This document shows, piece by piece, positions 9,390 through 63,996 of a DNA stretch of 64,000 nucleotides (positions are counted from its first letter, which is position 1; every line of letters begins with the position of its first letter). A model generated the notes under the pieces. It was not told the DNA's origin. It saw only the letters and a program-made list of their open reading frames with translations, and ran no database searches. Both the position numbers and the translations under genes were made by a program. The DNA is from Apostichopus japonicus. Taxonomy: Eukaryota > Echinodermata > Holothuroidea > Aspidochirotida > Stichopodidae. The stretch lies in NCBI RefSeq assembly GCF_037975245.1, contig NC_092562.1, positions 25,884,554 to 25,948,553 of the forward strand, in the 5' to 3' direction.

Positions 9390-9470
9390 CACCAAAAAAA
9401 AATGTGTCACCAAAAACATATATATATATATATATAGATATATATAAATAAAAACTATGTCACCAAAAAA

Positions 9471-9706: not shown

Positions 9707-9728
9707 TATATATATATACATATATATC

Positions 9729-10693: not shown

Positions 10694-10763
10694 ATGGATA
10701 GGACTATATTTTTAACATTCGTCGTCTCGTTACTTGCTTCGGTTGTTACAGTTTATGCTCAAG
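10694..10763 (+). CDS. Exon 1: signal peptide
   Basis: ATG opens [18 protein letters not shown], followed by TVYAQ: a short polar/basic start, a long hydrophobic core and a VYA-Q cleavage-like end, a textbook signal peptide. The exon ends after 23 codons plus one base at a consensus donor GTAAGT. Phase 1 matches the first EGF acceptor at 24927. No other signal-peptide exon or competing start was seen upstream of the EGF exons. Confidence 0.7.
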
Positions 10764-12344: not shown

Positions 12345-12434
<90 letters not shown>

Positions 12435-16089: not shown

Positions 16090-16167
<78 letters not shown>

Positions 16168-22100: not shown

Positions 22101-25100
22101 ACATCATTATTCAGTTATCCTCAATAAAAATTAATTTCCATTTGGGTGAGGTACCATGTTTTACATTGTGACATGAACATATTCGATCCTAATTTTTCAC
22201 AAACGACCGTTTAGTAATTTGACTATAGGCTATATATGATGACGGGTCGGCCCATGAGCACGAGTTTCAGCCCAACAGATCAGCCAATGAACACTAACAG
22301 CCCACTGAACGCTTATAAGTAGGCCACAACCAAGTGAAATCCTTTAGAAAACGAAGTGCTTTCACCCTAATGCTTGCTTGGCTTGCATCCAGGGTCACGG
22401 TGTGATCGATGATGGAAAACAGCAATTCTAAGTTACTGCGGCCGGAGGGATGGGGGGGGGGGGAGGGAGGGATCTTCTCGACTTTATTACCTGATACTTA
22501 TTTGGCCGGTATAATATATAGGCCTAGTTGAAAAGTTTTGTTGAACATTGCAAAATATTAGCCTTCTTTTTGCAGTCAACTCGCAAACAATGAATACTAA
22601 TTCAGGGACCAATTTATTGTTTCAAGCTCTACGCATGCGTTATTGAAGACCAGCGTTCGTCAAATTAAGCAAAGATAGAAACTTTTTCAAATGAGTACAG
22701 AGTTCCTTTCAAGGTACCTCAGGAATTCTAACAATTTCGGTTTTATCACAATTTCTTCGATTTTTTACCAGTCGGGCATAATGTGGTCTGGCTCAGTGGC
22801 TGGGCAATGTTTTTGCCAGAGACTATATGAATTTGGTCCCGGTAAACATTCGGAAACCGGGCAACAAACAAATATAGCTAAGTTACTGTGTCGTCTGCAA
22901 ACGATGGGATAGCGAATATTATGAAACTTATTAGGTCGGTTGCTTGGTAATACCGTACTTGTTGGTTTGGCTGCCGACAGAAAGAAGGTTGTTGCTAATT
23001 TTTTCGAGTAAATGGGAGAACATGAAGACATAAGAAAATTGCAGGAAATGTAACAGTCGTCAAATTGCCATGTGTGGAAGTCCTGTCATGCATGTGGTAT
23101 AAAACAAATTACTGTAAATCTGCACTAAGCTACAGTAGCCTAATTTCAAGCCTAACGTTAGGCCTAGACTAAACTGCACGCAGCCTACGCCTACAAAGTA
23201 TAACATTCGGACTAACCTAAGATACCATTACTAAACTGTAAACAAGAGGATGTAGGCCTAGTATGGTTATGCAATCGCTATATATAGGCTAGACCTAGCC
23301 TAGTAATAACAAATATAACTTACTGATTTTGGTAGGCTGTATAACTATTACCAAGGCTTAGGTAAAGCTAAAGGCCAGCGGATGCTGTATGTGGGTTCTG
23401 AAGTCAGCTAAAAATTCTCAGTATTGTCTATCTTGGTCAATTTTCCCAGTTGTCCTCCGCATCTCGCCGCTCCTGACTTGGATAAGCATTGACATCGTCA
23501 ATTCACGTTTAAACCTTTATATGAAGAAGATGAATTAAGTTACACGATCAGTTAGTTATAATTCAAATAATCTACATTGCTGATCAAAATTTCGCGATAT
23601 AGAGTCCTCATGGTCATGGAGTCATGGCGACAAAACCAGAGGGACCCTCAACCGCGCAGATATCCGTGAAATTTGGCCATGGCCGCGCATGGAGCGAAAA
23701 ATTACTGATCACTTGCCCGCGCAAAATGCAAACTTTCCAGTCTGGGGCCAGCCTGCACTTAATCTTCTTGGGGTCTTTTAATATTAGGAAGCTTTTCTGA
23801 AAGTGTGAGCCTGCTTTATTCCAAAATGAAGCGGGATAAATCCCTCGCCTACCACAATCGGGGTGGTAGGTAGCCACTGAACTGACATCAAAATGGAAAA
23901 GACATGCAGAGTCAGGACACTTTTTTGCACTCTGGAGTCTGGGTCTATACTGTTGTCTAGGCTATATTAATGAACTGAAAGCGTACTCATTATCCCATAC
24001 TTTTCCACCCCACTATTGTAAAGCCTGGCATATTATATCAGACCCTGTGATTGACCCTTGGCTGTATCCAGCTGCATGACCTCCCATTCTCATCAACCTG
24101 GACACATCAATTACTCTAGATGATGACATGATAAGATGACATGGGTTGCTAGTCATGAACCATCTTCATATCTTTGGGGAAACCATGCAGGTTTATGATG
24201 ATAATAATAATGATGAATGTAGCCTATGCTACACTGAAAATGAAACTAGAAATGATCAATATTTATGATTTATGTGTATACATACATATGCATTTATATA
24301 CAAAGGTCAACTACAGTACACAATTAAAAAAGTATTAACAATGTATAGCTGTAGTAATGATCATGTAAATATTGAGTGTTTACAGTTTTGCTTCAATGCA
24401 CTTATTAGAAATGCTTGACATACATGCATTCCGTGAAGGTTAATGCCAGGTGGAGGACAGTGCACTAATTTGCTGGACTGTACCGCATAACTCAAGTACT
24501 GGAAGCAGTGGGGTGTAGACTGGAACTTTGGAAGGGATCTACCAGTGTTGGCATCTTGGGTCAGGGACTTGGACTACAGTGGTATAATTTTGTGACTTGT
24601 CACTTTCCTTTGACTTACATTCAAAGACTTGATTCTTGCCCAATGACAATGAGAGCTATTCTCAAGTTGTGTAAGACAAAGCTCTTGTAGATCTATCACA
24701 TATAGCAGCAGGCTTGAACAATCCAATCAAAGGAGGTTGTGAATAACCTTGACTCAACTTAATGGACGAATCAGGACTTTTCATAGCCAGTCAACAATGA
24801 AACCAGTTGGGGACCAGAGCAATGACCAATGAGAGTTCAACAAGTTACCCCAAATTCATAATCTGTTGGGATTATCTATTTCTTTCTTAATTGATCGCAT
24901 ATTATTTTGGCCTTTTATCTTCTCAGATCCATGCAGACCAGATCCCTGCACCAACAATGGGGCTTGCTTCCAAGATCCATTGAATGAAGAATTTGGTTAC
25001 ATTTGTGTTTGCCCTCCAGGATTTCTTGGTCAGAACTGTGAGGCAGGTTTGTAAGCATGGCACGGCAAGCATTAAGCCACTGCACTTTTCTTGCACATTC

Positions 25101-52100: not shown

Positions 52101-55100
52101 AACATCTGTCTCAGCTGTATCTACTGATACACCAGCCAGTCCAGTTACTGATGGTACAGCAGGATCTACAGTTAGTGGAGCAACACCTGTCTCAGCTGTA
52201 TCTACTGATACACCAGCTAGTCTAGTTACTGATGGTACAGCAGGATCTACAGTTAGCGGAGCAACACCTGTCTCAGCTCTATCTACTGATACACCAGCCA
52301 GTCCAGTTACTGATGGTACAGTTGGATCTACAGTTAGTGGTGCAACCGGAAGGATGAGTTCTACATTGATGGCAGAGACATCTACACAAGTTCAAGGTAC
52401 TTCTTGCAATTATTGCTTAAACTTTATTTGTTTCCTAGGAACTGCTTATTGAAATGTTTAGATATACTAAATGTTTTTTTTATATTTATTTTTATTAATT
52501 GTGATATTAGAGGTGTTTTTAACCAACACAGGACAGGAAATTATCAAGAATGTTTTACAAAGCAAGAAAATGAATGGATGTAACTGAAATTAAACTGTGC
52601 TTGCCAGAAGGAGTTATTTCCTGCACCCACTGAGCTATCCCATCTTTAGTCATTAGTAATCACACTACCCCTCACAGGTTTCATTATTTATGAAGTTTAT
52701 ATAACATAGAACTTTCTAATAGAAAAGCATCTACAGAACAGTATAGACTGTACATCTTGAAGATTACTTGCTGGTATTTTTTTCCACCATCAGATTTGCG
52801 TTGCTACATATGTTCTGATCAGGAATCTTGCACAGAGAGTGAACTTCTCTTCGAAACCTGCCCGGACAATTCCATTTGCCTGACAAGGAACGTGACGGCT
52901 ACCTATTTAATTGGTAAGTTAGACTAAATGTACACTGTGACTTATTTTTGAGTCTCTCATGTTCCAACCAATTCCTAGCCATTTCAACCTCATGCCTGTA
53001 CATGAGAATCTAACTAAAACTGTATAACGCATCAAATGCACTGATAGGACTATCGTATCGCACTTTAGTATGTTCCTTATTTTTATTAGAATGCTTGCTT
53101 TTAGAATTTCCTTTTTTTCATCATGATGACACACCTGATGTAATTTAAGATCAATAGCAAAGCAGCTAACCGATAATATCGATTTTTCTATCCTTGATTT
53201 AGCTCAGACTAAACTTTCTATGTATATTTTATCTACAAAAGTTTAAACCACAGTGAAATTTCTATAAATTAAGTCACTGCATTCACCAATAAACAGTTCT
53301 ACACAGATATTTCTTCAAGTAGTTTTGGTCTTCGGGAACCAATGCTAGATGGAATGATAAAGAGTCCTTTTGGTGCAAATTTAATTTTTGTCTCACAAAG
53401 GTCCTGTAGTGTCAACGCAGGATGATTTGTTTCGAGGATGCTTCCCCAGTGACTTGACAGCTGTTAAGGATGGATGCGTGAATGGATCTACTTTCTTCGA
53501 CACTGCGGGTTCATTACCCGCAGGGGTGACAGTAACCGATGTGGAGGGACGAGTTTGTTTCTGTGATACAGACTTGTGCAATAGTGAAGAGGTGTCTAAA
53601 GAATTTCCAGGTAAGTCTTTCCATTGTTCTGTATTGGTATAAAAAAAAAATATTTACGAAACTGTGCTGTAAAAAAAGATAAACATGTCATAGTCTATTT
53701 TCTGCATGATCAACTTTTGATGTGCTGCGTCTGTTTTTACCCTCTATGGGGAAGGTTGTTTAATGTTTAAGGAATAGTTGAGACCATTTTCTTGTAGATT
53801 GTACAATGTTTGGCATAGTTTCTATGATAATTGAAAGGATAATGTTACCTGTAATCAGTTTTCATTTGTGAGGTATAATTGCAACTTCAGGTTGTTTAAC
53901 ATCAAGGTAAATAAATCTGAATATTACATCAAATATGCACATGGACACAGTTTAGGTTTGAGGAATAAATGGTAGATGAAACAATGAACAAAAGCTTCTG
54001 AAACATAAATTAGTGTCATCAGTGATTAACTTTTACAGCTTCAAAAGTGGAATCAGTCATTACTATTCTATATGTTATGAAAGTTTACACATGTCATTTT
54101 ATTTCTCTCTCCAGCTACAACACAAGGTCCAGTTACGTCTACAACGGCATCGCCTCCCACACCTGAAACTATATCACCTGATGGTGCTACAGATTCTCAA
54201 TCAAATATGTCACCAACAGTTAGTAGAGCAACACCTGTCTCAGCTGTATCTACTGATACACCAGCCAGTCCAGTTACTGATGGTACAGCAGGATCTACAG
54301 TTAGTGGAGCAACATCTTTCTCAGCTGTATCTACTGATACACCAGCCAGTCCAGTTACTGATGGTACAGCAGGATCTACAGTTAGTGGTTCAATACCTGT
54401 CTCAGCTGTATCTACTGATACACCAGCCAGTCCAGTTACTGATGGTACAGCAGGATCTACAGTTAGTGGAGCAACACCTGTGTCAGCTGTATCTACTGAT
54501 ACACCAGCCAGTCCAGTTACTGATGGTACAGCAGGATCTACAGTTAGTGGAGCAACACCTGTATCAGCTGTGTCTACTGATACACCAGCCAGTCCAGTTA
54601 CTGATGGTACAGCAGGATCTACAGTTAGTGGAGCAACACCTGTCTCAGCTGTATCTACTGATACACCAGCCAGTCCAGTTACTGATGGTACAGCAGGATC
54701 TACAGTTAGTGGAGCAACACCTGTCTCAGCTGTATCTACTGATACACCAGCCAGTCCAGTTACTGATGGTACAGCAGGATCTACAGTTAGTGGAGCAACA
54801 TCTGTCTCAGCTGTATCTACTGATACACCAGCCAGTCCAGTTACTGATGGTACAGCAGGATCTACAGTTAGTGGTTCAACACCTGTCTCAGCTGTGTCTA
54901 CTGATACACCAGCCAGTCCAGTTACTGATGGTACAGCAGGATCTACAGTTAGTGGAGCAACACCTGTCTCAGCTGTATCTACTGATACACCAGCTAGTCT
55001 AGTTACTGATGGTACAGCAGGATCTACAGTTAGCGGAGCAACACCTGTCTCAGCTCTATCTACTGATACACCAGCCAGTCCAGTTACTGATGGTACAGTT

Positions 55101-58100
55101 GGATCTACAGTAAGTGGTGCAACCGGAAGGATGAGTTCTACATTGATGGCAGAGACATCTACACAAGTTCAAGGTACTTCTTGCAATTATTGCTTAAACT
55201 TTATTTGTTTCCTAGGAACTGCTTATTGAAATGTTTAGATATACTAAATGTTTTTTTTATATTTATTTTTATTAATTGTGATATTAGAGGTGTTTTTAAC
55301 CAACACAGGACAGGAAATTATCAAGAATGTTTTACAAAGCAAGAAAATGAATGGATGTAACTGAAATTAAACTGTGCTTGCCAGAAGGAGTTATTTCCTG
55401 CACCCACTGAGCTATCCCATCTTTAGTCATTAGTAATCACACTACCCCTCACAGGTTTCATTATTTATGAAGTTTATATAACATAGAACTTTCTAATAGA
55501 AAAGCATCTACAGAACAGCATAGACTGTACATCTTGAAGATTACTTGCTGGTATTTTTTTCCACCATCAGATTTGCGTTGCTACATATGTTCTGATCAGG
55601 AATCTTGCACAGAGAGTGAACTTCTCTTCGAAACCTGCCCGGACAATTCCATTTGCCTGACAAGGAACGTGACGGCTACCTATTTAATTGGTAAGTTAGA
55701 CTAAATGTACACTGTGACTTATTTTTGAGTCTCTCATGTTCCAACCAATTCCTAGCCATTTCAACCTCATGCCTGTACATGAGAATCTAACTAAAACTGT
55801 ATAACGCATCAAATGCACTGATAGGACTATCGTATCGCACTTTAGTATGTTCCTTATTTTTATTAGAATGCTTGCTTTTAGAATTTCCTTTTTTTCATCA
55901 TGATGACACACCTGATGTAATTTAAGATCAATAGCAAAGCAGCTAACCGATAATATCGATTTTTCTATCCTTGATTTAGCTCAGACTAAACTTTCTATGT
56001 ATATTTTATCTACAAAAGTTTAAACCACAGTGAAATTTCTATAAATTAAGTCACTGCATTCACCAATAAACAGTTCTACACAGATATTTCTTCAAGTAGT
56101 TTTGATCTTCGGGAACCAATGCTAGATGGAATGATAAAGAGTCCTTTTGGTGCAAATTTAATTTTTGTCTCACAAAGGTCCTGTAGTGTCAACGCAGGAT
56201 GATTTGTTTCGAGGATGCTTCCCCAGTGACTTGACAGCTGTTAAGGATGGATGCGTGAATGGATCTACTTTCTTCGACACTGCGGGTTCATTACCCGCAG
56301 GGGTGACAGTAACCGATGTGGAGGGACGAGTTTGTTTCTGTGATACAGACTTGTGCAATAGTGAAGAGGTGTCTAAAGAATTTCCAGGTAAGTCTTTCCA
56401 TTGTTCTGTATTGGTATAAAAAAAAATATTTACGAAACTGTGCTGTAAAAAAAGATAAACATGTCATAGTCTATTTTCTGCATGATCAACTTTTGATGTG
56501 CTGCGTCTGTTTTTACCCTCTATGGGGAAGGTTGTTTAATGTTTAAGGAATAGTTGAGACCATTTTCTTGTAGATTGTACAATGTTTGGCATAGTTTCTA
56601 TGATAATTGAAAGGATAATGTTACCTGTAATCAGTTTTCATTTGTGAGGTATAATTGCAACTTCAGGTTGTTTAACATCAAGGTAAATAAATCTGAATAT
56701 TACATCAAATATGCACATGGACACAGTTTAGGTTTGAGGAATAAATTGTAGATGAAACAATGAACAAAAGCTTCTGAAACATAAATTAGTGTCATCAGTG
56801 ATTAACTTTTACAGCTTCAAAAGTGGAATCAGTCATTACTATTCTATATGTTATGAAAGTTTACACATGTCATTTTATTTCTCTCTCCAGCTACAACACA
56901 AGGTCCAGTTACGTCTACAACGGCATCGCCTCCCACACCTGAAACTATATCACCTGATGGTGCTACAGATTCTCAATCAAATATGTCACCAACAGTTAGT
57001 AGAGCAACACCTGTCTCAGCTGTATCTACTGATACACCAGCCAGTCCAGTTACTGATGGTACAGCAGGATCTACAGTTAGTGGAGCAACATCTTTCTCAG
57101 CTGTATCTACTGATACACCAGCCAGTCCAGTTACTGATGGTAGAGCAGGATCTACAGTTAGTGGTTCAATACCTGTCTCAGCTGTATCTACTGATACACC
57201 AGCCAGTCCAGTTACTGATGGTACAGCAGGATCTACAGTTAGTGGAGCAACACCTGTGTCAGCTGTATCTACTGATACACCAGCCAGTCCAGTTACTGAT
57301 GGTACAGCAGGATCTACAGTTAGTGGAGCAACACCTGTATCAGCTGTGTCTACTGATACACCAGCCAGTCCAGTTACTGATGGTACAGCAGGATCTACAG
57401 TTAGTGGAGCAACACCTGTCTCAGCTGTATCTACTGATACACCAGCCAGTCCAGTTACTGATGGTACAGCAGGATCTACAGTTAGTGGAGCAACATCTGT
57501 CTCAGCTGTATCTACTGATACACCAGCCAGTCCAGTTACTGATGGTACAGCAGGATCTACAGTTAGTGGTTCAACACCTGTCTCAGCTGTGTCTACTGAT
57601 ACACCAGCCAGTCCAGTTACTGATGGTACAGCAGGATCTACAGTTAGTGGAGCAACACCTGTCTCAGCTGTATCTACTGATACACCAGCTAGTCTAGTTA
57701 CTGATGGTACAGCAGGATCTACAGTTAGCGGAGCAACACCTGTCTCAGCTGTGTCTACTGATACACCAGCCAGTCCAGTTACTGATGGTACAGCAGGATC
57801 TACAGTTAGTGGAGCAACACCTGTCTCAGCTGTATCTACTGATACACCAGCCAGTCCAGTTACTGATGGTACAGTTGGATCTACAGTAAGTGGTGCAACC
57901 GGAAGGATGAGTTCTACATTGATGGCAGAGACATCTACACAAGTTCAAGGTACTTCTTGCAATTATTGCTTAAACTTTATTTGTTTCCTAGGAACTGCTT
58001 ATTGAAATGTTTAGATATACTAAATGTTTTTTTTATATTTATTTTTATTAATTGTGATATTAGAGGTGTTTTTAACCAACACAGGACAGGAAATTATCAA

Positions 58101-61100
58101 GAATGTTTTACAAAGCAAGAAAATGAATGGATGTAACTGAAATTAAACTGTGCTTGCCAGAAGGAGTTATTTCCTGCACCCACTGAGCTATCCCATCTTT
58201 AGTCATTAGTAATCACACTACCCCTCACAGGTTTCATTATTTATGAAGTTTATATAACATAGAACTTTCTAATAGAAAAGCATCTACAGAACAGTATAGA
58301 CTGTACATCTTGAAGATTACTTGCTGGTATTTTTTTCCACCATCAGATTTGCGTTGCTACATATGTTCTGATCAGGAATCTTGCACAGAGAGTGAACTTC
58401 TCTTCGAAACCTGCCCGGACAATTCCATTTGCCTGACAAGGAACGTGACGGCTACCTATTTAATTGGTAAGTTAGACTAAATGTACACTGTGACTTATTT
58501 TTGAGTCTCTCATGTTCCAACCAATTCCTAGCCATTTCAACCTCATGCCTGTACATGAGAATCTAACTAAAACTGTATAACGCATCAAATGCACTGATAG
58601 GACTATCGTATCGCACTTTAGTATGTTCCTTATTTTTATTAGAATGCTTGCTTTTAGAATTTCCTTTTTTTCATCATGATGACACACCTGATGTAATTTA
58701 AGATCAATAGCAAAGCAGCTAACCGATAATATCGATTTTTCTATCCTTGATTTAGCTCAGACTAAACTTTCTATGTATATTTTATCTACAAAAGTTTAAA
58801 CCACAGTGAAATTTCTATAAATTAAGTCACTGCATTCACCAATAAACAGTTCTACACAGATATTTCTTCAAGTAGTTTTGGTCTTCGGGAACCAATGCTA
58901 GATGGAATGATAAAGAGTCCTTTTGGTGCAAATTTAATTTTTGTCTCACAAAGGTCCTGTAGTGTCAACGCAGGATGATTTGTTTCGAGGATGCTTCCCC
59001 AGTGACTTGACAGCTGTTAAGGATGGATGCGTGAATGGATCTACTTTCTTTGACACTGCGGGTTCATTACCCGCAGGGGTGACAGTAACCGATGTGGAGG
59101 GACGAGTTTGTTTCTGTGATACAGACTTGTGCAATAGTGAAGAGGTGTCTAAAGAATTTCCAGGTAAGTCTTTCCATTGTTCTGTATTGGTATAAAAAAA
59201 AAATATTTACGAAACTGTGCTGTAAAAAAAGATAAACATGTCATAGTCTATTTTCTGCATGATCAACTTTTGATGTGCTGCGTCTGTTTTTACCCTCTAT
59301 GGGGAAGGTTGTTTAATGTTTAAGGAATAGTTGAGACCATTTTCTTGTAGATTGTACAATGTTTGGCATAGTTTCTATGATAATTGAAAGGATAATGTTA
59401 CCTGTAATCAGTTTTCATTTGTGAGGTAAAATTGCAACTTCAGGTTGTTTAACATCAAGGTAAATAAATCTGAATATTACATCAAATATGCACATGGACA
59501 CAGTTTAGGTTTGAGGAATAAATTGTAGATGAAACAATGAACAAAAGCTTCTGAAACATAAATTAGTGTCATCAGTGATTAACTTTTACAGCTTCAAAAG
59601 TGGAATCAGTCATTGCTATTCTATATGTTATGAAAGTTTACACATGTCATTTTATTTCTCTCTCCAGCTACAACACAAGGTCCAGTTACGTCTACAACGG
59701 CATCGCCTCCCACACCAGAAACTATATCACCTGATGGTGCTACAGATTCTCAATCAAATATGTCACCAACAGTTAGTAGAGCAACACCTGTCTCAGCTGT
59801 ATCTACTGATACACCAGCCAGTCCAGTTACTGATGGTACAGCAGGATCTACAGTTAGTGTAGCAACACCTGTCTCAGCTGTATCTACTGATACACCAGCC
59901 AGTCCAGTTACTGATGGTACAGCAGGATCTACAGTTAGTGGAGCAACACCTGTCTCAGCTGTATCTACTGATACACCAGCCAGTCCAGTTACTGATGGAA
60001 CAGCAGGATCTACAGTTAGTGGAGCAACACCTGTCTCAGCTGTATCTACTGATACACCAGCCAGTCCAGTTACTGATGGTACAGCAGGATCTACAGTTAG
60101 TGGAGCAACACCTGTCTCAGCTGTATCTACTGATACACCAGCCAGTCCAGTTACTGATGGTACAGCAGGATCTACAGTTAGTGGAGCAACACCTGTCTCA
60201 GCTGTATCTACTGATACACCAGCCAGTCCAGTTACTGATGGTACAGCAGGATCTACAGTTAGTGGAGCAACACCTGTCTCAGCTGTATCTACTGATACAC
60301 CAGCCAGTCCAGTTACTGATGGTACAGCAGGATCTACAGTTAGTGGAGCAACACCTGTCTCAGCTGTATCTACTGATACACCAGCCAGTCCAGTTACTGA
60401 TGGTACAGCAGGATCTACAGTTAGTGGAGCAACACCTGTCTCAGCTGTGTCTACTGATGCACCAGCCAGTCCAGTTACTGATGGTACAGCAGGATCTACA
60501 GTTAGTGGAGCAACACCTGTCTCAGCTGTGTCTACTGATGCACCAGCCAGTCCAGTAACTGATGGTACAGCAGGATCTACAGTTAGTGGAGCAACACCTG
60601 TCTCAGCTGTGTCTACTGATCCACCAGCCAGTCCAGTTACTGATGGTACAGCAGGATCTACAGTTAGTGGAGTAACACCTGTCTCAGCTGTGTCTACTGA
60701 TACACCAGCCAGTCCAGTTACTGATGGTACAGCAGGATCTACAGTTAGTGGAGTAACACCTGTCTCAGCTGTGTCTACTGATACATCAGCCAGTCCAGTT
60801 ACTGATGGTACAGCAGGATCTACAGTTAGTGGAGTAACACCTGTCTCAGCTGTGTCTACTGATACATCAGCCAGTCCAGTTACTGATGGTACAGCAGGAT
60901 CTACAGTTAGTGGAGTAACACCTGTCTCAGCTGTATCTACTGATACACCAGCCAGTCCAGTTACTGATGGTACAGCAGGATCTACAGTTAGTGGAGCAAC
61001 ACCTGTCTCAGCTGTATCTACTGATACACCAGCCAGTCCAGTTACTGATGGTACAGCAGGATCTACAGTTAGTGGAGCAACACCTGTCTCAGCTGTGTCT

Positions 61101-63996
61101 ACTGATACACCAGCCAGTCCAGTTACTGATGGAACAGCAGGATCTACAGTTAGTGGAGCAACACCTGTCTCAGCTGTTTCTACTGATACACCTGCCAGTC
61201 CAGTTACTGATGGAACAGTAGGATCTACAGTAAGTGGTTCAACACCTGTTTCAGCCATGTCTACTGATACACCAGCCAGTCCAGTAACTGATGGTACAGC
61301 GGGATCTTCAGTTAGTGGAGCAACACCTGTCTCAGCTGTATCTACTGATACACCTGCCAGTCCAGTTACTGATGGTACAGTAGGAACTACAGTAAGTGGT
61401 TCAACACCTGTCTCAGCTGTGTCTACTGATACACCAGCCAGTCCAGTTACTGATGGTACAGCAGGATCTTCAGTTAGTGGTTCAACACCTGTCTCAGCTG
61501 TATCTACTGCACCAGCCAGTCCAGTTACTGATGGAACAGCAGGATCTACAGCTAGTGGAGCAACACCTGTCTCAACTGTATCTACTGATACACCAGCCAG
61601 TCCAGTTACTGATGGTACAGAAGGATCTACAGTTAGTGGTTCAACACCTGTCTCAGCTGTGTCTACTGATACAACAGCCAATCCAGTTACTGATGGTACT
61701 ACTACTTCAGGTATTTGAATTTTAATCCTTCATCTCTTTTTTTGTAATAACAAATTTAGTAATAGTATATTAAGATTTAAAACATATTGTTTGGGCTTTT
61801 ATTACAAGAAACCATTTTTGATGTCAATAGTTTCTATAAGTTATTGTTAATTATCCTTCTGTTATTGTATATGTTAATATTTATGCTGTTTTTTTGTTAA
61901 CCAAACTGCCTGTAAGATCTTCGATATTGTTCGGCAATAGAACACTTGCCGGTAACACTAGAAACATTTGTCTTATTTCTTAATCACCTTTATTACAGCC
62001 TATCGTTGCTACACTTGCCTGGGAGAGGAACAGTGTTCTGGCGATAATGTCCCTTTCCAGATTTGTAATGCAAACGAAATTTGCATCACAAGAAATATTA
62101 CAGCAACCTTTGGCTTGGGTATGTTTTTATGCAATTCTTGCCTGTATTACTAACAGTGATTTCACTAACATTTACCCACAGAATATCATGTTTATTAATG
62201 CTTATGATAGTGAACCATTACACCCTAGCAGAACAGCGAAATTGTGGGATAGGTGATGCTCATCAGCCAGCCACTAAACTTTGTCCTCGCAGCTATAGAA
62301 TTGCTTAAGACAACATTGATTACTTTGAGCTAACAGTAACAGCAAAACAGACATTTTATGGTCTCATTCAAGCACATTAACCATTTCAAAGCAAAATCAT
62401 GAATGGACAAGCTAATTGGAAAGTCATGAATTCTGAAAGAGGTAGAAAAATGATCAATAATAAGCCAAATTTCTGTTGCAATGTCTTCCCAGCAGATCTT
62501 GATGCATTTGTTAAACCTTTGTAAGGATCAAGCCTTCTAAATCTGATACTGATAACGCCCAACTAGCTCTGAGGCAGCTAATATTTACACTCTTTTCAAA
62601 AATGGTATTCAAAGAAAATTGAGGTCATTCCCTTCTTGTGGTTCTACACTATTATGCACTACTACATGTCCGCTGATAGCTCACACTGTCGATGTGTGAT
62701 TACTTGGTTGTCAGATTCTCCTGTTCTTCATCAGTCCAGAATAATGAAATTGTCGATGCTTGCTTTTTCACATTCGAAAGGTTCCTTCACTGTCTCGAGC
62801 GACGATGTCTTTCGGGGATGCTTCAACAAGAATCTTGTATCTCCAGAGACGGTTTGTTTGGCTGGTCGTGATTACTTTGACCTTGCATCGTCCATTCCCA
62901 CCAGTTTGGAGTTACTGGAGGTAGAGGGCACTGTTTGCTTTTGTCGGACAGACCTCTGCAATAGCGAGATCCTCCTTCAAGAGAAAGAAGGTGAGATCAG
63001 CTGAAGTGTGCTGTTGCAGGCAAAGTCATTCTAATGATAATCAATTCATTGCTTGCATTTCGTGCAAAGTCACATGATGAAATAAGAAATGAATCCTGCT
63101 TTTGGAAGGCACTTACCAAACCAGAGGAAAAAGGGGGCACATGGATTCATTTATGACACATATAAGCTTGTTAATTGCTCTTTCTTTCTTCAAACATTTT
63201 GCTCATTTTTTTGTATGTTAACGTAGACATTACATTCAAGATGAGAAAAGCTAGAAAATCACCCATTTATATTGTTTGAAGCCATCAAATTTAAATGTTT
63301 ACAGTAGTTACAGTGTCAAAATATAGCTGTACATTTCAGGGCACAGCTGTTCATGCCAAACCCTTATTGTCCTATTTGGACAAATTTCTAAGTATCAGGA
63401 CATTAGGACACATCCATTTCATGACAACACAGATACAACTGTCCATGTTCAGAAATGATTGTCCGAATTGGGACTTAGTATTCCCCATTCCCCGACCACC
63501 CCCCCCCCCTCAGCGGACACTTGATTAACGAGTTACAGTCATCACAGGTCATTTTGTGAAGTGATGTTTGCCCTGTCCAGAAAATGTATTCAAATGGTTG
63601 GACATATGATTATATAATCAACTATGGAACATAATTGATGTCAGTGGCAAGTGGTCGTGGGAAAGAGTGAACAAGGTTCTTACGAAAGGAGGAAACATTC
63701 ATAATATTAATACGGACCACAATAAGAGACTGTACGCTGCGTGTGGTATTAGTATGAGTGTAATACTGATGTGGGGATAAGCAAATGTTATTTTTTTGTT
63801 AAACTCAACTACTGCTAATTAGAAAAGTTTTGTTTTTATCCTTCTTTAATTAAAACTGAAATTTCAGTCACAACTCCTGTTCCAACTACGACTACTTTGA
63901 GGACAACGACTCCTCAGACCACAACGGTGGTCACTACAGCTGCAACAACAACAGTGGCCTCGACTACTGTCACTACAAGACCACCCACTACTCAAG
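10694..63996 (+). CDS. Giant secreted/surface glycoprotein gene: signal peptide, 4 EGF, 11 x (Ly6/uPAR + mucin repeat); spans introns
   Basis: This entry is the whole span of the gene; exons are listed separately. The 39 exons give 17,476 coding nt (about 5,825 residues), and the last visible exon ends in a donor, so the C terminus lies outside. Order: signal peptide, four EGF-like domains, one Thr/Ser/Pro linker, then eleven modules of Ly6/uPAR domain plus mucin-like repeat exon. Every junction is phase 1. Each Ly6 domain has the family's ten cysteines (twelve in the first), ends in CFC-x2-DLCN, and is split after a conserved N-x-T sequon. The mucin repeats are 41-49% Ser+Thr and lack Cys, Lys and aromatics, as expected for O-glycosylated stalks. 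The product should enter the secretory pathway; whether it is anchored cannot be seen. I know of no named gene with this architecture. The linkage of exon 1 across about 14 kb is inferred from phase and position; everything from 24.9 kb on is firm. Confidence 0.85.
11911..12170. repeat. Unclassified interspersed repeat with (AAT)n end
   Basis: Begins with an (AAT)n-like run, then a segment around TTCTTATATAGCGCAACA, GCGCTGTACAAAAGAG and CATCTCCACAGACACGAC. This block layout resembles a common aquatic-invertebrate repeat with a trinucleotide tail, reading from the minus strand. I recognise it by pattern only; no second copy is in the window. Confidence 0.5.
12349..12448. repeat. (TA)n microsatellite
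   Basis: About 100 bp of TA interrupted once by AAA near 12430, preceded by TGTATGTAAT-type words. Confidence 0.95.
14151..14229. repeat. 20-bp minisatellite, four copies
   Basis: The unit TGTCCCCATATGTGGGTCAG starts at 14151, 14171, 14191 and 14211, with single changes in the last two copies. Each unit contains a small inverted repeat (CCCCATATGTGGG). Confidence 0.9.
15781..15996 (-). mobile_element. tRNA-containing interspersed element, copy 2
   Basis: Reverse complement of the element at 9471-9706, and like it bordered by TA: a short TA run at 15761-15780 touches one end and the large array at 16087 lies about 90 bp beyond the other. Relative to copy 1 it lacks most of the anticodon-arm segment but keeps both promoter boxes (GGTTCGAATCC and TAGCCTAGTGG on the minus strand). 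Confidence 0.75.
16087..16162. repeat. (TA)n microsatellite
   Basis: About 76 bp of TA with one CATATA interruption, followed directly by a G-run. Confidence 0.95.
16205..16680. repeat. 158-bp tandem repeat, about three copies
   Basis: The anchor GTTGACAATTGACT occurs at 16221, 16379 and 16537, an exact 158-base spacing. Copies share CATGTTTCATTTCAAATACT and CCAAGTTTGG blocks with scattered substitutions. The third copy decays at its end. Confidence 0.9.
16733..16820. repeat. Short tandem repeat of about 29 bp, three copies
   Basis: TCGATAAGGACTAAACGT followed by AAAGTAACATG is repeated twice nearly exactly, with a third diverged copy (ACTAGACGTGAAGTG). GTCCTTATCGACA-like words also occur at the end of each 158-bp unit just upstream, in reverse orientation. 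Confidence 0.8.
17375..17665. mobile_element. Probable MITE (hAT-like)
   Basis: Starts TGCAGGCGCGAAGCG and ends CGCTACGTGCCTGGT, with imperfect inverted ends. It is flanked by GCATCAGAC (17366-17374) and GTATCAGAC (17666-17674), a duplication of 8-9 bp with one mismatch. It contains an interior hairpin-forming GCGTAGCACCACCATG segment similar to one in the element at 19291. No coding sequence. Confidence 0.5.
19211..20035. mobile_element. Foldback element with long inverted arms
   Basis: GCTTACCTGTCTCCTCACAA at the left end and its complement TTGTGAGGAGACAGGTAAGC at the right end bound the element. The arms also share AGCGCTAACACGCTCCGAA, then (19660-19770 against 19855-19975) segments including GACCAGACCATCAGGTGCC. 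The loop is about 85 bp. The left arm is interrupted by a second element (19291-19653). No transposase is visible. Confidence 0.8.
19291..19653. mobile_element. MITE nested in the left arm of the foldback element
   Basis: Left end CAGGGGCGTCGGAAGC, right end GGCTCCGACGCCCCTG, clear terminal inverted repeats. GCTT flanks both sides (19287-19290 and 19654-19657), a likely 4-bp target duplication. The right foldback arm shows the uninterrupted sequence. It contains a near-perfect palindrome around CGCTACGCGCCACCATGG at about 19384-19414. Confidence 0.75.
24927..25046 (+). CDS. Exon 2: EGF-like domain 1
   Basis: Acceptor TTCTCAG, donor GTTTGT, phase 1 on both sides. It encodes [18 protein letters not shown], then [17 protein letters not shown]: six cysteines in the EGF order with the PC-x-NG-x-C and CPPGF-x-G-x-NC hallmarks. 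It is slightly longer than the next three because of an insert between the third and fourth cysteine. Confidence 0.92.
25047..25833 (+). other. Intron 2, nothing recognised
   Basis: AT-rich intron with a G-rich tract near 25315-25360. No exon or element was identified. Confidence 0.5.
25834..25947 (+). CDS. Exon 3: calcium-binding EGF-like domain 2
   Basis: Encodes [16 protein letters not shown], then [15 protein letters not shown]. The D-x-D/N-E start (IDEC) is the calcium-binding EGF signature, here present only in this domain of the four. Donor GTAACT, phase 1 both sides. Confidence 0.93.
25948..27084 (+). other. Intron 3, nothing recognised
   Basis: About 1.1 kb with no supported exon or repeat boundary. 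Confidence 0.5.
27085..27198 (+). CDS. Exon 4: EGF-like domain 3
   Basis: Acceptor CATGAAG, donor GTGAGT. Encodes [20 protein letters not shown] and [16 protein letters not shown]. All six EGF cysteines are present. It begins END instead of a full calcium-binding D-x-D-E. Confidence 0.93.
27199..28469 (+). other. Intron 4 with AT-rich/(ATT)n tract
   Basis: A very AT-rich block at about 27920-28085 includes a (TTA)n run near 27985-28006. A G-run lies near 27385. No exon recognised. Confidence 0.6.
28470..28583 (+). CDS. Exon 5: EGF-like domain 4
   Basis: Acceptor GTAAACAG, donor GTAAGA. Encodes [16 protein letters not shown], then [16 protein letters not shown]. The usual Gly before the sixth cysteine is replaced by Pro, so it is the least canonical of the four, but all six cysteines remain. 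Confidence 0.92.
28584..30608 (+). other. Intron 5, nothing recognised
   Basis: About 2 kb. No exon, no clear element ends. Confidence 0.5.
30609..30737 (+). CDS. Exon 6: Thr/Ser/Pro-rich linker
   Basis: Begins [13 protein letters not shown] and continues with a Thr/Ser-rich stretch ending LATTPGT. Unlike the later mucin exons it is short and has no internal repeat. Phase 1 both sides. It separates the EGF block from the first Ly6 domain. Confidence 0.82.
30738..31189 (+). other. Intron 6, nothing recognised
   Basis: About 450 bp, AT-rich, no feature identified. Confidence 0.5.
31190..31309 (+). CDS. Exon 7: Ly6/uPAR domain 1, N-terminal half
   Basis: Encodes [16 protein letters not shown], then [17 protein letters not shown]. 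The C-Y-x-C start and five cysteines match the first half of a three-finger domain. The sequon is NIT. Donor GTATCT. Confidence 0.88.
31310..31956 (+). other. Intron splitting Ly6 domain 1
   Basis: About 650 bp, no recognisable element. Its position inside the domain is the same in all eleven modules. Confidence 0.6.
31957..32157 (+). CDS. Exon 8: Ly6/uPAR domain 1, C-terminal half, with extra cysteines
   Basis: Encodes [18 protein letters not shown], then [18 protein letters not shown], and closes with [11 protein letters not shown]. It lacks the RGCF-P motif of later modules and has two additional cysteines (DSC and PLC), which could form one extra disulfide on a finger. It is the most divergent C half. 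Confidence 0.88.
32158..32562 (+). other. Intron between Ly6 domain 1 and mucin exon 1
   Basis: About 400 bp, nothing recognised. Confidence 0.5.
32563..33807 (+). CDS. Exon 9: mucin-like exon 1 (30-residue repeats)
   Basis: After a short leader, a 90-bp unit is repeated with starts every 90 bases from 32611 to 33781 (13 full units and a partial). Core: [18 protein letters not shown] and [12 protein letters not shown]; 13 of 30 residues are Ser or Thr. The exon appears to end inside the last unit, at TCCA then GTGAGT, which keeps phase 1. Variants (STAS/SNES, SQQT/SQHT, VVSS/VVAS/VVVS) are shuffled among units, a sign of exchange within the array. Confidence 0.88.
33808..34278 (+). other. 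Intron between mucin exon 1 and Ly6 domain 2
   Basis: Its start (TTATTTAAAGTTAAATGTT) matches a stretch that lies about 50 bases inside the corresponding introns after mucin exons 2 and 3, showing that the donor site has moved between modules. Confidence 0.65.
34279..34401 (+). CDS. Exon 10: Ly6/uPAR domain 2, N-terminal half
   Basis: Encodes [17 protein letters not shown], then [17 protein letters not shown]. Five cysteines and the sequon NLT. The peptide is identical in domains 3 and 4. Confidence 0.92.
34402..34785 (+). other. Intron splitting Ly6 domain 2 (short form)
   Basis: At 384 bp it is far shorter than the same intron in modules 3 and 4 (949 and 1,052 bp), which carry a CCAGTCAGTGCCTGG minisatellite that is absent here. 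Confidence 0.75.
34786..34995 (+). CDS. Exon 11: Ly6/uPAR domain 2, C-terminal half
   Basis: Encodes [31 protein letters not shown] and [14 protein letters not shown]. Five cysteines complete a ten-cysteine domain. It differs from domains 3 and 4 only at EIT (EII there) and RSC (RGC there). Confidence 0.92.
34996..35333 (+). other. Intron between Ly6 domain 2 and mucin exon 2
   Basis: About 340 bp, closely similar to 38052-38394 and 41961-42301, the equivalent introns of modules 3 and 4. Confidence 0.75.
35334..36404 (+). CDS. Exon 12: mucin-like exon 2 (41-residue repeats)
   Basis: Opens [15 protein letters not shown], then about seven copies of a 123-bp unit ([20 protein letters not shown], then two QAST/TTAST-type blocks); 20 of 41 residues are Ser or Thr. 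The 3' end switches to the 30-residue type ([18 protein letters not shown]) and closes with a unique tail ending TTRESD. Donor GTAGGT. The exon is therefore a chimera of two repeat families. Confidence 0.88.
36405..36769 (+). other. Intron between mucin exon 2 and Ly6 domain 3
   Basis: Contains an unused GTGTGAGT near 36450, the counterpart of the donor used after mucin exon 1. Confidence 0.6.
36770..36892 (+). CDS. Exon 13: Ly6/uPAR domain 3, N-terminal half
   Basis: Same peptide as exon 10, with nearly identical codons (a CACTTT to CACGTT change near the end is among the few differences). Confidence 0.92.
36893..37841 (+). other. Intron splitting Ly6 domain 3, with minisatellite
   Basis: At 37120-37440 a unit around AATGACTCCAGTCAGTGCCT is repeated with irregular spacing of roughly 50-80 bp. 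The rest matches the equivalent intron of module 4. Confidence 0.8.
37842..38051 (+). CDS. Exon 14: Ly6/uPAR domain 3, C-terminal half
   Basis: Carries [14 protein letters not shown] and the [13 protein letters not shown] terminus. Same peptide as exon 17. Confidence 0.92.
38052..38394 (+). other. Intron between Ly6 domain 3 and mucin exon 3
   Basis: Near-copy of 34996-35333, with small substitutions. Confidence 0.7.
38395..40203 (+). CDS. Exon 15: mucin-like exon 3 (41-residue repeats, longest of its type)
   Basis: About thirteen 123-bp units, versus about seven in mucin exon 2. It has the same leader ([10 protein letters not shown]) and the same hybrid 3' end with one 30-residue-type unit. 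A variant unit with [16 protein letters not shown] recurs at two places in this array (near 39130 and 39630) and once in mucin exon 2, so a block of several units has been copied. Confidence 0.88.
40204..40575 (+). other. Intron between mucin exon 3 and Ly6 domain 4
   Basis: Counterpart of 36405-36769, with the unused GTGTGAGT at about 40249. Confidence 0.65.
40576..40698 (+). CDS. Exon 16: Ly6/uPAR domain 4, N-terminal half
   Basis: Third copy of the [11 protein letters not shown] peptide, with only silent changes (ACAACC to ACGACC) relative to exons 10 and 13. Confidence 0.92.
40699..41750 (+). other. Intron splitting Ly6 domain 4, expanded minisatellite
   Basis: From about 40920 to 41345 the unit (GTTGCAATGACTCCAGTC, then GATTGTAAGTTAATATGCA) is repeated at 53-95 bp spacing, with 65 bp between the last two. 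It is the longest version of this intron. Confidence 0.85.
41751..41960 (+). CDS. Exon 17: Ly6/uPAR domain 4, C-terminal half
   Basis: Peptide the same as exon 14. Silent changes include ACGGTG to ACAGTG and CTCGGA to CTTGGA. Confidence 0.92.
41961..42301 (+). other. Intron between Ly6 domain 4 and mucin exon 4
   Basis: Near-copy of the module 2 and 3 counterparts. The acceptor is AATTTTAG instead of AATATTAG. Confidence 0.7.
42302..43246 (+). CDS. Exon 18: mucin-like exon 4, junction exon (41-residue repeats, foreign 3' end)
   Basis: Leader and about seven units are of the 41-residue type, but the 3' end reads [14 protein letters not shown], the ending used by the 27-residue-type exons 5-9 ([13 protein letters not shown]). 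It lacks the 30-residue-type tail of mucin exons 2 and 3. It is thus the boundary between the two module clusters and looks like a recombination joint. Confidence 0.88.
43247..43573 (+). other. Intron between mucin exon 4 and Ly6 domain 5
   Basis: About 330 bp, no feature recognised. Confidence 0.5.
43574..43693 (+). CDS. Exon 19: Ly6/uPAR domain 5, N-terminal half
   Basis: Encodes [19 protein letters not shown], then [20 protein letters not shown]. First of the second Ly6 subtype (CYIC-DQESC). Sequon NVT. Confidence 0.92.
43694..44224 (+). other. Intron splitting Ly6 domain 5
   Basis: Ends AGAGTCCTTTT then TTTTTGTCTTACGAAG, related to the equivalent introns of modules 6-10 but clearly diverged. 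Confidence 0.6.
44225..44434 (+). CDS. Exon 20: Ly6/uPAR domain 5, C-terminal half
   Basis: Encodes [32 protein letters not shown] and [17 protein letters not shown]. It has PGR where domains 6-10 have the extra sequon NGS. Donor GTAAGT preceded by CCAT, so the split codon gives Ser instead of Ala at the next junction. Confidence 0.92.
44435..44968 (+). other. Intron between Ly6 domain 5 and mucin exon 5
   Basis: Contains a short tandem duplication of a segment with ATTGAAATAAACAA (about 44465 and 44505), also seen after domain 6. Confidence 0.7.
44969..46837 (+). CDS. Exon 21: mucin-like exon 5 (27-residue repeats)
   Basis: Leader [20 protein letters not shown], then about 21 units of 81 bp. 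Core: [19 protein letters not shown], then TAGSTVSG; 11 of 27 residues are Ser or Thr. Ends [15 protein letters not shown], donor GTATTT. Unit variants (TGG for TDG, GSTPVS, TDV) are intermixed. Confidence 0.88.
46838..47309 (+). other. Intron between mucin exon 5 and Ly6 domain 6
   Basis: Carries a 21-bp tandem duplication (ATGATTTGTATAGAGTTTT near 46925 and 46946). The remainder is shared with modules 6-9. Confidence 0.7.
47310..47429 (+). CDS. Exon 22: Ly6/uPAR domain 6, N-terminal half
   Basis: [16 protein letters not shown] with TATSSI at the end. Intermediate between domain 5 (Phe after CYIC retained) and domains 7-10 (Ser at that place). Confidence 0.92.
47430..47915 (+). other. Intron splitting Ly6 domain 6
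   Basis: Alignable throughout with modules 7-10 but with numerous substitutions, so this module is older than the 7-10 block. Confidence 0.7.
47916..48125 (+). CDS. Exon 23: Ly6/uPAR domain 6, C-terminal half
   Basis: [18 protein letters not shown], then [13 protein letters not shown] and [18 protein letters not shown]. It is the first domain with the second N-glycosylation sequon (NGS) and keeps the Ile of domain 5 after DLCN. Confidence 0.92.
48126..48723 (+). other. Intron between Ly6 domain 6 and mucin exon 6
   Basis: About 600 bp, the longest of this intron set, with an insert near 48280-48340 (CAACTGCAGGGCTTTTCTGA) not seen in the other modules. Confidence 0.65.
48724..49701 (+). CDS. 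Exon 24: mucin-like exon 6 (27-residue repeats)
   Basis: Ten 81-bp units. The leader differs by [14 protein letters not shown]. Private changes include AIPVTD, a unit starting ATAVSA and SSDTPAS. The closing unit has GTVGSTVSG, shared with mucin exons 7-9. Confidence 0.88.
49702..50097 (+). other. Intron between mucin exon 6 and Ly6 domain 7
   Basis: Almost identical to 52397-52793, 55174-55570 and 57950-58346. Confidence 0.8.
50098..50217 (+). CDS. Exon 25: Ly6/uPAR domain 7, N-terminal half
   Basis: [16 protein letters not shown]. The Ser after the third cysteine is a private change; domains 8-10 have Thr. Ends NVTATYLI. Confidence 0.92.
50218..50704 (+). other. Intron splitting Ly6 domain 7
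   Basis: 487 bp, same length as in modules 8, 9 and 10 and near-identical to them. Confidence 0.8.
50705..50914 (+). CDS. Exon 26: Ly6/uPAR domain 7, C-terminal half
   Basis: [18 protein letters not shown] through [18 protein letters not shown]. The peptide is unchanged in domains 8, 9 and 10. Confidence 0.92.
50915..51418 (+). other. Intron between Ly6 domain 7 and mucin exon 7
   Basis: 504 bp, the same length as 53611-54114 and 59164-59667; the copy at 56388-56890 is one A shorter. Near-identical sequence. Confidence 0.8.
51419..52396 (+). CDS. Exon 27: mucin-like exon 7 (27-residue repeats, 10 units)
   Basis: Leader ends [10 protein letters not shown]. Distinctive units are second ATSFSA, third STPVSA, eighth ATSVSA and ninth SLVTDG. 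These landmarks recur in exons 8 and 9 and allow the arrays to be aligned unit by unit. Confidence 0.88.
52397..52793 (+). other. Intron between mucin exon 7 and Ly6 domain 8
   Basis: 397 bp, the same length as the following two counterparts. Confidence 0.8.
52794..52913 (+). CDS. Exon 28: Ly6/uPAR domain 8, N-terminal half
   Basis: [16 protein letters not shown] to NVTATYLI. Same peptide as domains 9 and 10. Confidence 0.92.
52914..53400 (+). other. Intron splitting Ly6 domain 8
   Basis: 487 bp. Differs from the module 7 copy at isolated bases (for example ATCGCACTTT versus ATGGCACTTT). Confidence 0.8.
53401..53610 (+). CDS. Exon 29: Ly6/uPAR domain 8, C-terminal half
   Basis: No differences from exon 26 were noticed at the DNA level. 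Confidence 0.92.
53611..54114 (+). other. Intron between Ly6 domain 8 and mucin exon 8
   Basis: One of four near-identical copies. It carries AAATGGTAGATG where the others have AAATTGTAGATG. Confidence 0.8.
54115..55173 (+). CDS. Exon 30: mucin-like exon 8 (27-residue repeats, 11 units)
   Basis: Same landmarks as exon 27 plus one extra STPVSA unit after ATSVSA, giving exactly 81 bp more. The third unit has changed to SIPVSA. Confidence 0.88.
55174..55570 (+). other. Intron between mucin exon 8 and Ly6 domain 9
   Basis: 397 bp. Differs at single bases, such as AACAGCATAGAC versus AACAGTATAGAC. Confidence 0.8.
55571..55690 (+). CDS. Exon 31: Ly6/uPAR domain 9, N-terminal half
   Basis: Same peptide as exon 28; no nucleotide difference was noticed. 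Confidence 0.92.
55691..56177 (+). other. Intron splitting Ly6 domain 9
   Basis: 487 bp, with the private change TTTTGATCTTCGGG (TTTTGGTCTTCGGG elsewhere). Confidence 0.8.
56178..56387 (+). CDS. Exon 32: Ly6/uPAR domain 9, C-terminal half
   Basis: Same peptide as exons 26 and 29. Confidence 0.92.
56388..56890 (+). other. Intron between Ly6 domain 9 and mucin exon 9
   Basis: One base shorter than its counterparts because of an A-run near 56418, which explains the 2,776 versus 2,777 bp module length. Confidence 0.8.
56891..57949 (+). CDS. Exon 33: mucin-like exon 9 (27-residue repeats, 11 units)
   Basis: Same length as mucin exon 8 but not the same order: one middle ATPVSA unit is missing and one is added after SLVTDG. 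The third unit shares the SIPVSA change of exon 8, and the second unit has the private DGRAGS. Equal length hides an internal loss plus gain. Confidence 0.88.
57950..58346 (+). other. Intron between mucin exon 9 and Ly6 domain 10
   Basis: 397 bp, near-identical to its module 7 and 8 counterparts. Confidence 0.8.
58347..58466 (+). CDS. Exon 34: Ly6/uPAR domain 10, N-terminal half
   Basis: Same peptide as exons 28 and 31. Confidence 0.92.
58467..58953 (+). other. Intron splitting Ly6 domain 10
   Basis: 487 bp, matching modules 7-9. Confidence 0.8.
58954..59163 (+). CDS. Exon 35: Ly6/uPAR domain 10, C-terminal half
   Basis: Same peptide as exons 26, 29 and 32, with one silent change (TTCGAC to TTTGAC). 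Confidence 0.92.
59164..59667 (+). other. Intron between Ly6 domain 10 and mucin exon 10
   Basis: Last copy of this intron in the block; a few private changes (GGTAAAATT, ATTGCTATT). Confidence 0.8.
59668..61710 (+). CDS. Exon 36: mucin-like exon 10 (27-residue repeats, longest array)
   Basis: About 24 units. Its leader matches exons 27, 30 and 33, but the array is independently expanded with long runs of identical units (about 59920-60440) and a run of VTPVSA variants (60660-60920). Near the 3' end, units degrade (STAPAS with a codon deleted, [13 protein letters not shown]). It ends TTTSG at donor GTATTT, without the [11 protein letters not shown] ending of the other 27-residue exons. The 3' boundary is therefore an older or different junction. 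Confidence 0.88.
61711..61998 (+). other. Intron between mucin exon 10 and Ly6 domain 11
   Basis: About 290 bp and unrelated in sequence to the introns at this position in modules 6-10. Confidence 0.6.
61999..62118 (+). CDS. Exon 37: Ly6/uPAR domain 11, N-terminal half
   Basis: [20 protein letters not shown], then [18 protein letters not shown]. Five cysteines, sequon NIT. Its DNVPF resembles the ENVPF of domains 2-4 more than domains 5-10. Confidence 0.9.
62119..62780 (+). other. Intron splitting Ly6 domain 11
   Basis: About 660 bp, no recognised element. Confidence 0.55.
62781..62990 (+). CDS. Exon 38: Ly6/uPAR domain 11, C-terminal half
   Basis: [33 protein letters not shown] and [14 protein letters not shown]. 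It keeps the DVFRGCF and CFC-x2-DLCN landmarks but is otherwise well diverged. Donor GTGAGA. Confidence 0.9.
62991..63867 (+). other. Intron between Ly6 domain 11 and mucin exon 11
   Basis: About 880 bp, with a C-tract near 63500. No feature assigned. Confidence 0.5.
63868..63996 (+). CDS. Exon 39: mucin-like exon 11, short and non-repetitive
   Basis: 43 residues, mostly Thr with Val, Ala and Pro ([17 protein letters not shown], ends RPPTTQ). It has none of the three tandem repeat types. A GTAA donor at 63997 shows the gene continues outside the window in phase 1. Confidence 0.82.

Follow-up and report, generated by a model that had tools for sequence, protein, structure and literature searches.

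A predicted EGF-LU-mucin surface protein gene of Apostichopus japonicus with a likely receptor-like pseudokinase tail

Introduction

Multi-LU proteins, among them uPAR, C4.4A/LYPD3, CD177 and those of Drosophila, contain LU (Ly6/uPAR) domains with ten cysteines, which are encoded over two exons with phase-1 introns and are repeated within one polypeptide (PMC6600238, PMC4839075). The primordial LU domain comprises 60-90 residues, Drosophila proteins carry 2-44 LU domains, and LU domains generally bind proteins via their loops and their concave face (PMC6600238). In those sections of the two sources that deal with architecture, LU domains stand alone or in LU-only arrays, with few exceptions. 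Here we describe a gene of the sea cucumber Apostichopus japonicus that begins in the window, i.e. the whole stretch of 64,000 nucleotides analysed (C2:25884554-25948553), and that shares the repeated ten-cysteine heads over two exons and the phase-1 introns with these proteins, but has a stalk exon, mostly with long mucin repeats, between the heads and EGF exons joined to them. Its heads are also longer, as their first-to-last cysteine span of 94-98 residues exceeds the 60-90 residues that the consulted part of PMC6600238 gives for the primordial domain, and they end in the motif CxCxxxLCN.

By analogy, the nearest architectural parallel is the alternation of the gel-forming mucins MUC5AC, MUC5B and MUC2, in which a cysteine-rich domain of ~100 aa (CysD) alternates with PTS repeats in near-identical copies, as described in the relevant section of PMC9712336. 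In contrast to these mucins, the window gene has LU domains instead of CysD, each of its stalks forms a phase-1 exon of its own, an apparent membrane anchor follows, and no VWD domain was among the Pfam matches obtained for it. A second parallel is MUC16, which has SEA domains between its repeats. ErbB3 is a pseudokinase of the RTK family. CCK4/PTK7 is likewise named among the pseudokinases and has, like the probable product of the window gene, a receptor architecture with a tyrosine-kinase fold that lacks a catalytic residue (PMC8662651, in the part considered here). Unlike the RTK-family pseudokinases, the window gene has LU and mucin parts in its ectodomain, and the main text of PMC8662651, as far as it was available, mentions neither uPAR nor mucin. 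The FGF and Tie receptors were the whole-length kinase matches in the PDB that followed an EGFR tandem construct among the best 60 of 104, and differ from the window gene, in which the HRD Asp is lost. Tie also combines EGF and FN3 domains. The TGF-beta receptors are Ser/Thr kinases with one three-finger domain, without mucin and without EGF. They show the combination of a three-finger ectodomain and a kinase that is predicted here, and are one of the few non-LU settings named in the consulted part of PMC6600238. The starfish three-finger protein Lystar5 is likewise an echinoderm protein with a LU domain, but it is small and has a single LU domain; binding to subunits of nAChR and of integrins has been reported for it (PMC12843386, PMC9410279, both in excerpt). 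Among the open-licence PMC papers listed by the literature searches, none was found to describe LU domains that alternate with mucin parts, or an RTK that carries such a series.

Materials and Methods

The window was read in all frames, and exons were rebuilt from splice sites and reading frame. Genome searches covered 671,581,487 bases in 35 contigs. The 100 kb to the right of the window were examined as well, and the coordinates given for this region are continued from those of the window.

Results

An uninterrupted series of 39 phase-1 exons in the window

An earlier note on this DNA had described 39 phase-compatible exons on the plus strand between 10694 and 63996, and this series could be reproduced. 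It consists of one signal peptide exon, four EGF exons, one short stalk exon and eleven units of LUa, LUb and stalk; all 38 introns are GT-AG introns in phase 1, and the spliced frame comprises 5825 aa without any stop. Exon 1 (10694..10763, plus strand) encodes a signal peptide of 23 aa, starts with the ATG at 10694 and ends at a phase-1 donor GTAAGT. In a scan of 5000-24920 it was the sole signal-peptide-like phase-1 exon. Intron 1 is 14,163 bases long and gave no Pfam match in four of its six frames, and the same holds for all six frames of positions 1-9990; neither VWD nor cystine-knot domains were among the Pfam matches obtained, which covered part of the introns. Intron 1 also contains a 158-base tandem repeat in 2.9 copies (16210-16669).

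The four EGF exons lie on the plus strand at 24927..25046, 25834..25947, 27085..27198 and 28470..28583, and score 27.7, 38.3, 40.7 and 29.3 bits, respectively, with PF00008, so that all four exceed the Pfam cut-off of 21.5 bits; the earlier note had likewise described four EGF exons. They are followed by a short Thr/Ser/Pro stalk exon of 43 aa (stalk0, 30609..30737, phase 1-1, S+T 0.40), and then by the heads and stalks, all on the plus strand as well. LU1 (exons 31190-31309 and 31957-32157) has 12 cysteines and reaches 24.4 bits with the Pfam model QVR, under the cut-off of 27.3, and is followed by stalk M1 with 415 aa in 30-aa repeats (32563..33807). LU2 (34279-34401, 34786-34995; 31.3 bits) precedes M2 with 357 aa in 41-aa repeats (35334..36404), LU3 (36770-36892, 37842-38051; 30.9 bits) precedes M3 with 603 aa (38395..40203), and LU4 (40576-40698, 41751-41960), the protein sequence of which is identical to LU3, precedes M4 with 315 aa (42302..43246). 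The donors of M2 and M3 are ambiguous and therefore uncertain, since M2 could end at 36404 or 36449 and M3 at 40203 or 40248. The next head, LU5 (43574-43693, 44225-44434), scores 25.7 bits, again under the cut-off, and is followed by M5 with 623 aa in 27-aa repeats (44969..46837). LU6 (47310-47429, 47916-48125; 29.5 bits) and LU7 (50098-50217, 50705-50914; 31.9 bits) are each followed by a stalk of 326 aa, namely M6 (48724..49701) and M7 (51419..52396). LU8 (52794-52913, 53401-53610; 31.6 bits), LU9 (55571-55690, 56178-56387) and LU10 (58347-58466, 58954-59163) are identical at the protein level; their stalks are M8 (54115..55173, 353 aa), M9 (56891..57949, 353 aa) and M10 (59668..61710, 681 aa). 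The last head in the window is LU11 (61999-62118, 62781-62990), with 24.9 bits under the cut-off, and it is followed by the 43-aa stalk M11 (63868..63996), the donor of which, GTAAGG, straddles the window edge.

The LU heads

In all 13 heads, i.e. those of the window plus LU12 and LU13 described below, the LU domain is encoded by two exons with flanks in phase 1, and these exons measure 120-123 and 201-210 bases in the eleven window heads. The window holds eight distinct head sequences (LU3=LU4, LU8=LU9=LU10), and ten are counted together with LU12 and LU13. All ten distinct sequences match Pfam PF17064 (QVR) with E-values of 6.2e-5 or better, and the model matches the heads end to end. Five of the ten, corresponding to eight of the 13 heads, pass the 27.3-bit cut-off; LU1, LU5, LU11, LU12 and LU13 stay below it at 24.4-26.7 bits. 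Matches of the heads to PF00021 (UPAR_LY6) never reach the cut-off of that model. A PDB search with a LU profile gave four matches at E<=10, none of them a LU protein, the best with 0.051.

The ten cysteines that the earlier note had ascribed to the heads apply to ten of the eleven heads in the window, but LU1 has two extra ones, which makes twelve; the ten core cysteines are kept in all 13. The last cysteine is followed by Asn in every head, and the CxCxxxLCN ending and the span of 94-98 residues are likewise common to all 13. Moreover, an N-glycan sequon (NxS/T) is found at the same place in the 13 heads and in both heads of a related locus. The heads are predicted to share one fold of the three-finger type. 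Between old head copies (pairs 2-5, 2-7, 5-11, 7-11 and 2-11) dN/dS is 0.18-0.38, at dS values of 1.8-2.9 that are near saturation, and dS was not computable for the two LU1 head pairs tried. The young pairs 5-6, 5-7 and 6-7 gave 0.81, 0.69 and 1.05, and the pairs 2-3, 2-4 and 3-4 gave 0.19, 0.14 and 0, in both cases from few changes.

Mucin-like stalks

The eleven window stalks M1-M11 range from 43 to 681 aa and add up to 4395 aa, with 1896 Ser/Thr, 380 Pro, 31 Lys/Arg, nine aromatic residues and no cysteine. Per stalk, S+T makes up 41-56% and P 5-12%. From this composition it can be inferred that the stalks are O-glycosylated, stiff and extended. Tandem arrays are present in M1-M10, with 0% indels and with unit lengths (90, 123 or 81 bases) that can all be divided by three. 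The three repeat families, 30 aa in M1, 41 aa in M2-M4 and 27 aa in M5-M10, parallel three head blocks (LU1; LU2-4; LU5-10), and remnants of the M1 repeat close M2 and M3. Within the stalk repeats 140 of 398 changes are synonymous compared to 119.7 expected (p 0.029, with copies that are not independent), and this slight excess suggests that the composition is kept, but the sequence hardly.

The eleven alternations of a LU domain with a Thr/Ser-rich stalk claimed before are therefore confirmed, as all heads match QVR and the stalks are rich in Ser and Thr and free of cysteine. Because of the Pfam E-values, the uniform phase and the low dN/dS between the old head copies, this series is not a product of chance. 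The domain search of the spliced protein that had been proposed thus matched both QVR and PF00008, and the open series of 5825 aa together with these matches bears out a gene for a very large surface glycoprotein of the type EGF-(LU-mucin)n. The EGF exons and the series of heads and stalks very probably form one product.

Continuation beyond the window

The series appears to run on for ~12 kb past the right edge of the window, where the extension that had been proposed led to two more heads, a FN3-like exon, a transmembrane (TM) helix, a tyrosine-kinase-like domain and a candidate GPI-like exon. LU12 (65042-65161 and 65746-65958, with the acceptor at 65746 or 65752) scores 26.7 bits with QVR. 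It is followed by the 21-aa stalk M12 (66123-66185), the 3' splice site of which is strong with 17 pyrimidines among 20 positions, and by LU13 (66805-66921, or from 66811, and 68347-68550; 26.5 bits). The next exon (68832-69110) was labelled FN3-like by eye. No FN3 model of Pfam matched it at E<=10, where two unrelated models appeared (0.038 and 0.053), and in the PDB an unrelated consensus TPR came first (0.014), followed by the FNIII domain of Contactin-3 (0.16). Then come the TM exon (70064-70254, or from 70046) and the kinase exons K1-K4 (70894-71116, 71838-71939, 72422-72612, 73204-73317) and K5-K8 (74032-74102, 74657-74697, 75088-75184 and 76174-76294 with the stop), all on the plus strand. 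A further C-terminal exon may follow K8. The whole model comprises 54 exons and 6540 aa (C2:25895247-25960847, plus strand) in one frame, the single stop of which lies at the end. All 53 introns are GT-AG; phase 1 is kept throughout the 45 introns before the TM exon, and the remaining eight are mixed.

The kinase-like domain

Against Pfam, the kinase region gave PF07714 with 1.3e-39 and PF00069 with 2.1e-20. Among the best 60 of 104 PDB matches obtained with phmmer, the EGFR tandem construct leads with 8.6e-36 for its two copies together, but with 5.8e-15 for the best single stretch, and FGFR4 (2.8e-30), Tie2 (1.2e-29), FGFR1 and FGFR2 come next; with an incomplete kinase model, Tie2 ranked above FGFR4. 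The stretch 'CVAHHLGAKN' was aligned to 'CIHRDLAARN' of FGFR4, so that the HRD position reads AHH and the catalytic Asp is absent, and 'DYP' was aligned to DFG. By eye, VYLR stands in place of the VAVK of beta-3 and there is no glycine loop; the segment beta1-beta3 was not aligned by any profile. The kinase thus appears RTK-like without the catalytic HRD Asp, and has FGFR and Tie among its best matches, a placement that comes from matches and not from a tree.

All eight kinase exons are open, and the domain is therefore not a decayed copy. Among the matches listed, 20 in the genome reach E<=0.001, of which seven are the gene's own exons. The best-scoring of the other 13, at C2:22.34 Mb, shows 29% identity, and up to 53% is reached by short ones of exon length. 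A close kinase paralog was rejected on the identity of this best-scoring non-self match. The domain thus has the appearance of a pseudokinase that is structurally complete and isolated.

Relatives in the same genome

A genome search with one head exon gave at least 38 matches at E<=10, 13 of which belong to the gene itself. A scan of the whole genome with the QVR family gave no match at E<=0.001, which is probably due to the distribution of each head over two exons; the control was also without a match. A second locus at C2:2.327-2.336 Mb on the minus strand contains two EGF exons, two LU heads, which are 27-40% identical to the heads of the window gene, and one frame rich in Thr/Ser. Its last exon seems to be of the GPI type, and the sole kinase found at this locus is encoded on the opposite strand. 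This is a single-exon frame of 430 codons at C2:2320452-2321741 (plus strand) with a TM helix and a tyrosine kinase with intact HRD and DFG, convergent with the LU locus. Its opposite strand, its single open frame and the two intact motifs led us to reject it as a homologous tail.

The minus strand of C2:4.897-4.952 Mb holds thirteen matches to LU exons, which mostly have E-values above 0.001 and perhaps represent another multi-LU gene. Two further loci, at C16:4.24 and C16:8.54 Mb, have EGF and LU exons no more than 3 kb apart, and the EGF copies of one are nearly identical to those of the other. Given these loci elsewhere in the genome, shuffling of EGF, LU and mucin modules seems to be a family habit. 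The kinase tail was seen only in the window gene, with the flanks of most other LU loci covered for about 1.5 kb a side.

The genome searches also touched mitochondrial sequence. COX1 on contig 35 was read best with genetic code 9 (504.3 bits), tied with code 14, and codes 24, 4, 5 and 13 gave 490.8, 482.8, 473.4 and 471.6 bits, respectively. An ND4L-like frame follows it by eye, and Aragorn found no tRNA there. Genetic code 9 and a COX1-ND4L gene order point to an echinoderm. Further COX1-like stretches at C29:14745-31219 are perhaps nuclear copies or duplicated mitochondrial sequence.

Discussion

One gene or several

The link of the kinase to the ectodomain is likely, but not proven, and the junction LU12-M12-LU13 is the place that matters for it. 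A signal peptide, one TM helix and a tyrosine-kinase domain are all present and phase-compatible in the sequence-built model, the exons lie on the same strand, and the phase matches across LU13, the FN3-like exon and the TM exon. Since a receptor-type kinase needs a signal peptide and the scan found none between M12 and LU13a, one gene is favoured, and a continuous product that includes the kinase can be regarded as reasonably probable. The scan of 64000-70060 returned five rows: two starts in the M12 exon (66086, 66098), two within LU13a, and a fifth between LU13a and LU13b (67020-67083), which would leave a broken head.

It is unlikely, although several elements would suit it, that two overlapping genes are present, namely a giant GPI-anchored EGF-(LU-mucin)n glycoprotein that ends at 66410-66498 and a separate small receptor made of a signal peptide at 66086, LU13, the FN3-like exon, the TM helix and the pseudokinase. 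Translated from the ATG at 66086, M12 would give a plausible signal peptide (MLLLMLFFLLSIA). Positions 66410-66498 could plausibly serve as a phase-1 last exon of the GPI type, with about 20 hydrophobic residues at its end, and for the relative at C2:2.33 Mb, too, the last exon seems to be of this type. In addition, a poly(A)-signal-like word is located at 66656. However, such words occur in 29 of the 38 introns anyway, the first exon of the second gene would sit within the last intron of the first, and the putative signal peptide reads through the same pyrimidine tract that makes the 3' splice site of M12 strong. Only one other GPI-like terminal exon (61809) was found in 25000-70060, and therefore a chance origin of the one at 66410 is possible, but not sure.

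Independent of the junction, the copy number of units 7-10 is uncertain. Units 7-9 are pairwise 99.3-99.7% identical over about 2.7 kb including the introns, unit 10 shares 95.5-95.6% identity with each of these three, and the values for units 5-6 and 6-7 are 90.5 and 93.8%. This high identity means either recent duplication of units or, in part, an assembly error. That some of units 7-10 were falsely duplicated, so that the true repeat number differs, would be compatible with each of the other explanations and fits the near identity of units 7-9, but we consider it improbable, as the stalk lengths differ between some copies and unit 10 is less similar to the others. Since LU1, LU2-4, LU5, LU6 and LU11-13 have diverged, the architecture does not depend on units 7-10 in any case.

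A single gene could also have two C-termini by alternative splicing, with a GPI-anchored form (66410) besides the transmembrane pseudokinase form. Both continuations are phase-compatible with M12, but with two GPI-like candidates in 25000-70060 the one at issue may have arisen by chance, and this reading is more doubtful still. An arrangement in which several short genes, each made of LU or LU-mucin exons, lie in tandem, the idea that the earlier note had named as its refutation, is very improbable: LU genes are commonly clustered (PMC6600238, in the part consulted) and an in-frame ATG with a hydrophobic stretch lies upstream of LU3a and LU4a (36610, 40416), but these stretches are intronic and broken in the LU2 copy, every ectodomain intron is in phase 1 with a median intron length of 487 bases from LU1a to LU13b, and the scans found one GPI-like terminal exon in the array (61809), no signal-peptide-like exon between 31190 and 64000, one weak phase-1 candidate in 25000-64000 outside the LU array (27302, between EGF3 and EGF4) and none on the minus strand of 5000-70060. 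We also rejected a plain secreted mucus mucin, because a TM helix and a kinase-like region follow in phase, and a pseudogene, because there is no stop or frame break across the 54 exons.

A receptor-like pseudokinase with a mucin ectodomain

On balance, the best explanation is thus a single surface receptor-like pseudokinase of ~6540 aa with a mucin ectodomain. It would be a single-pass protein that consists of a signal peptide, four EGF domains, twelve repetitions of LU head and mucin stalk, LU13, the FN3-like part, the TM helix and an RTK-like pseudokinase. With the TM helix and the kinase-like domain beyond the edge, the role in mucus, adhesion or recognition that had been proposed is revised to that of a receptor-like pseudokinase, probably, with the mucin part retained in the ectodomain.

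An extended mucin stalk measures 0.25 nm per residue. Accordingly extended, ten of the twelve stalks (315-681 aa) would give distances of about 80-170 nm between heads, compared to only about 11 and 5 nm for the last two stalks (43 and 21 aa), and all stalks together would give a filament of about 1.1 micrometre. The heads may offer a protein partner a large number of similar binding sites, and a multivalent ligand would thereby cluster the receptor. ErbB3- and PTK7-like pseudokinases serve as docking or allosteric partners for other kinases. As a dead kinase cannot phosphorylate, the one predicted here would have a comparable docking or allosteric role for other, active kinases. Stalk length and head number would evolve by unit duplication.

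With slightly less assurance than the single gene itself, we picture a micrometre-long bottlebrush receptor with 13 heads, an EGF tip and a pseudokinase, i.e. a transmembrane mucin that would at the same time be a receptor of the RTK family, with LU as a mobile module. LU exons that are interleaved with mucin and EGF exons, all in phase 1, make a strong case for LU as such a module. If the kinase belongs to the gene, the gene would bring together the receptor tyrosine (pseudo)kinase and the transmembrane mucin as two ideas of a receptor, and it would become testable whether a filament of glycocalyx length signals by clustering.
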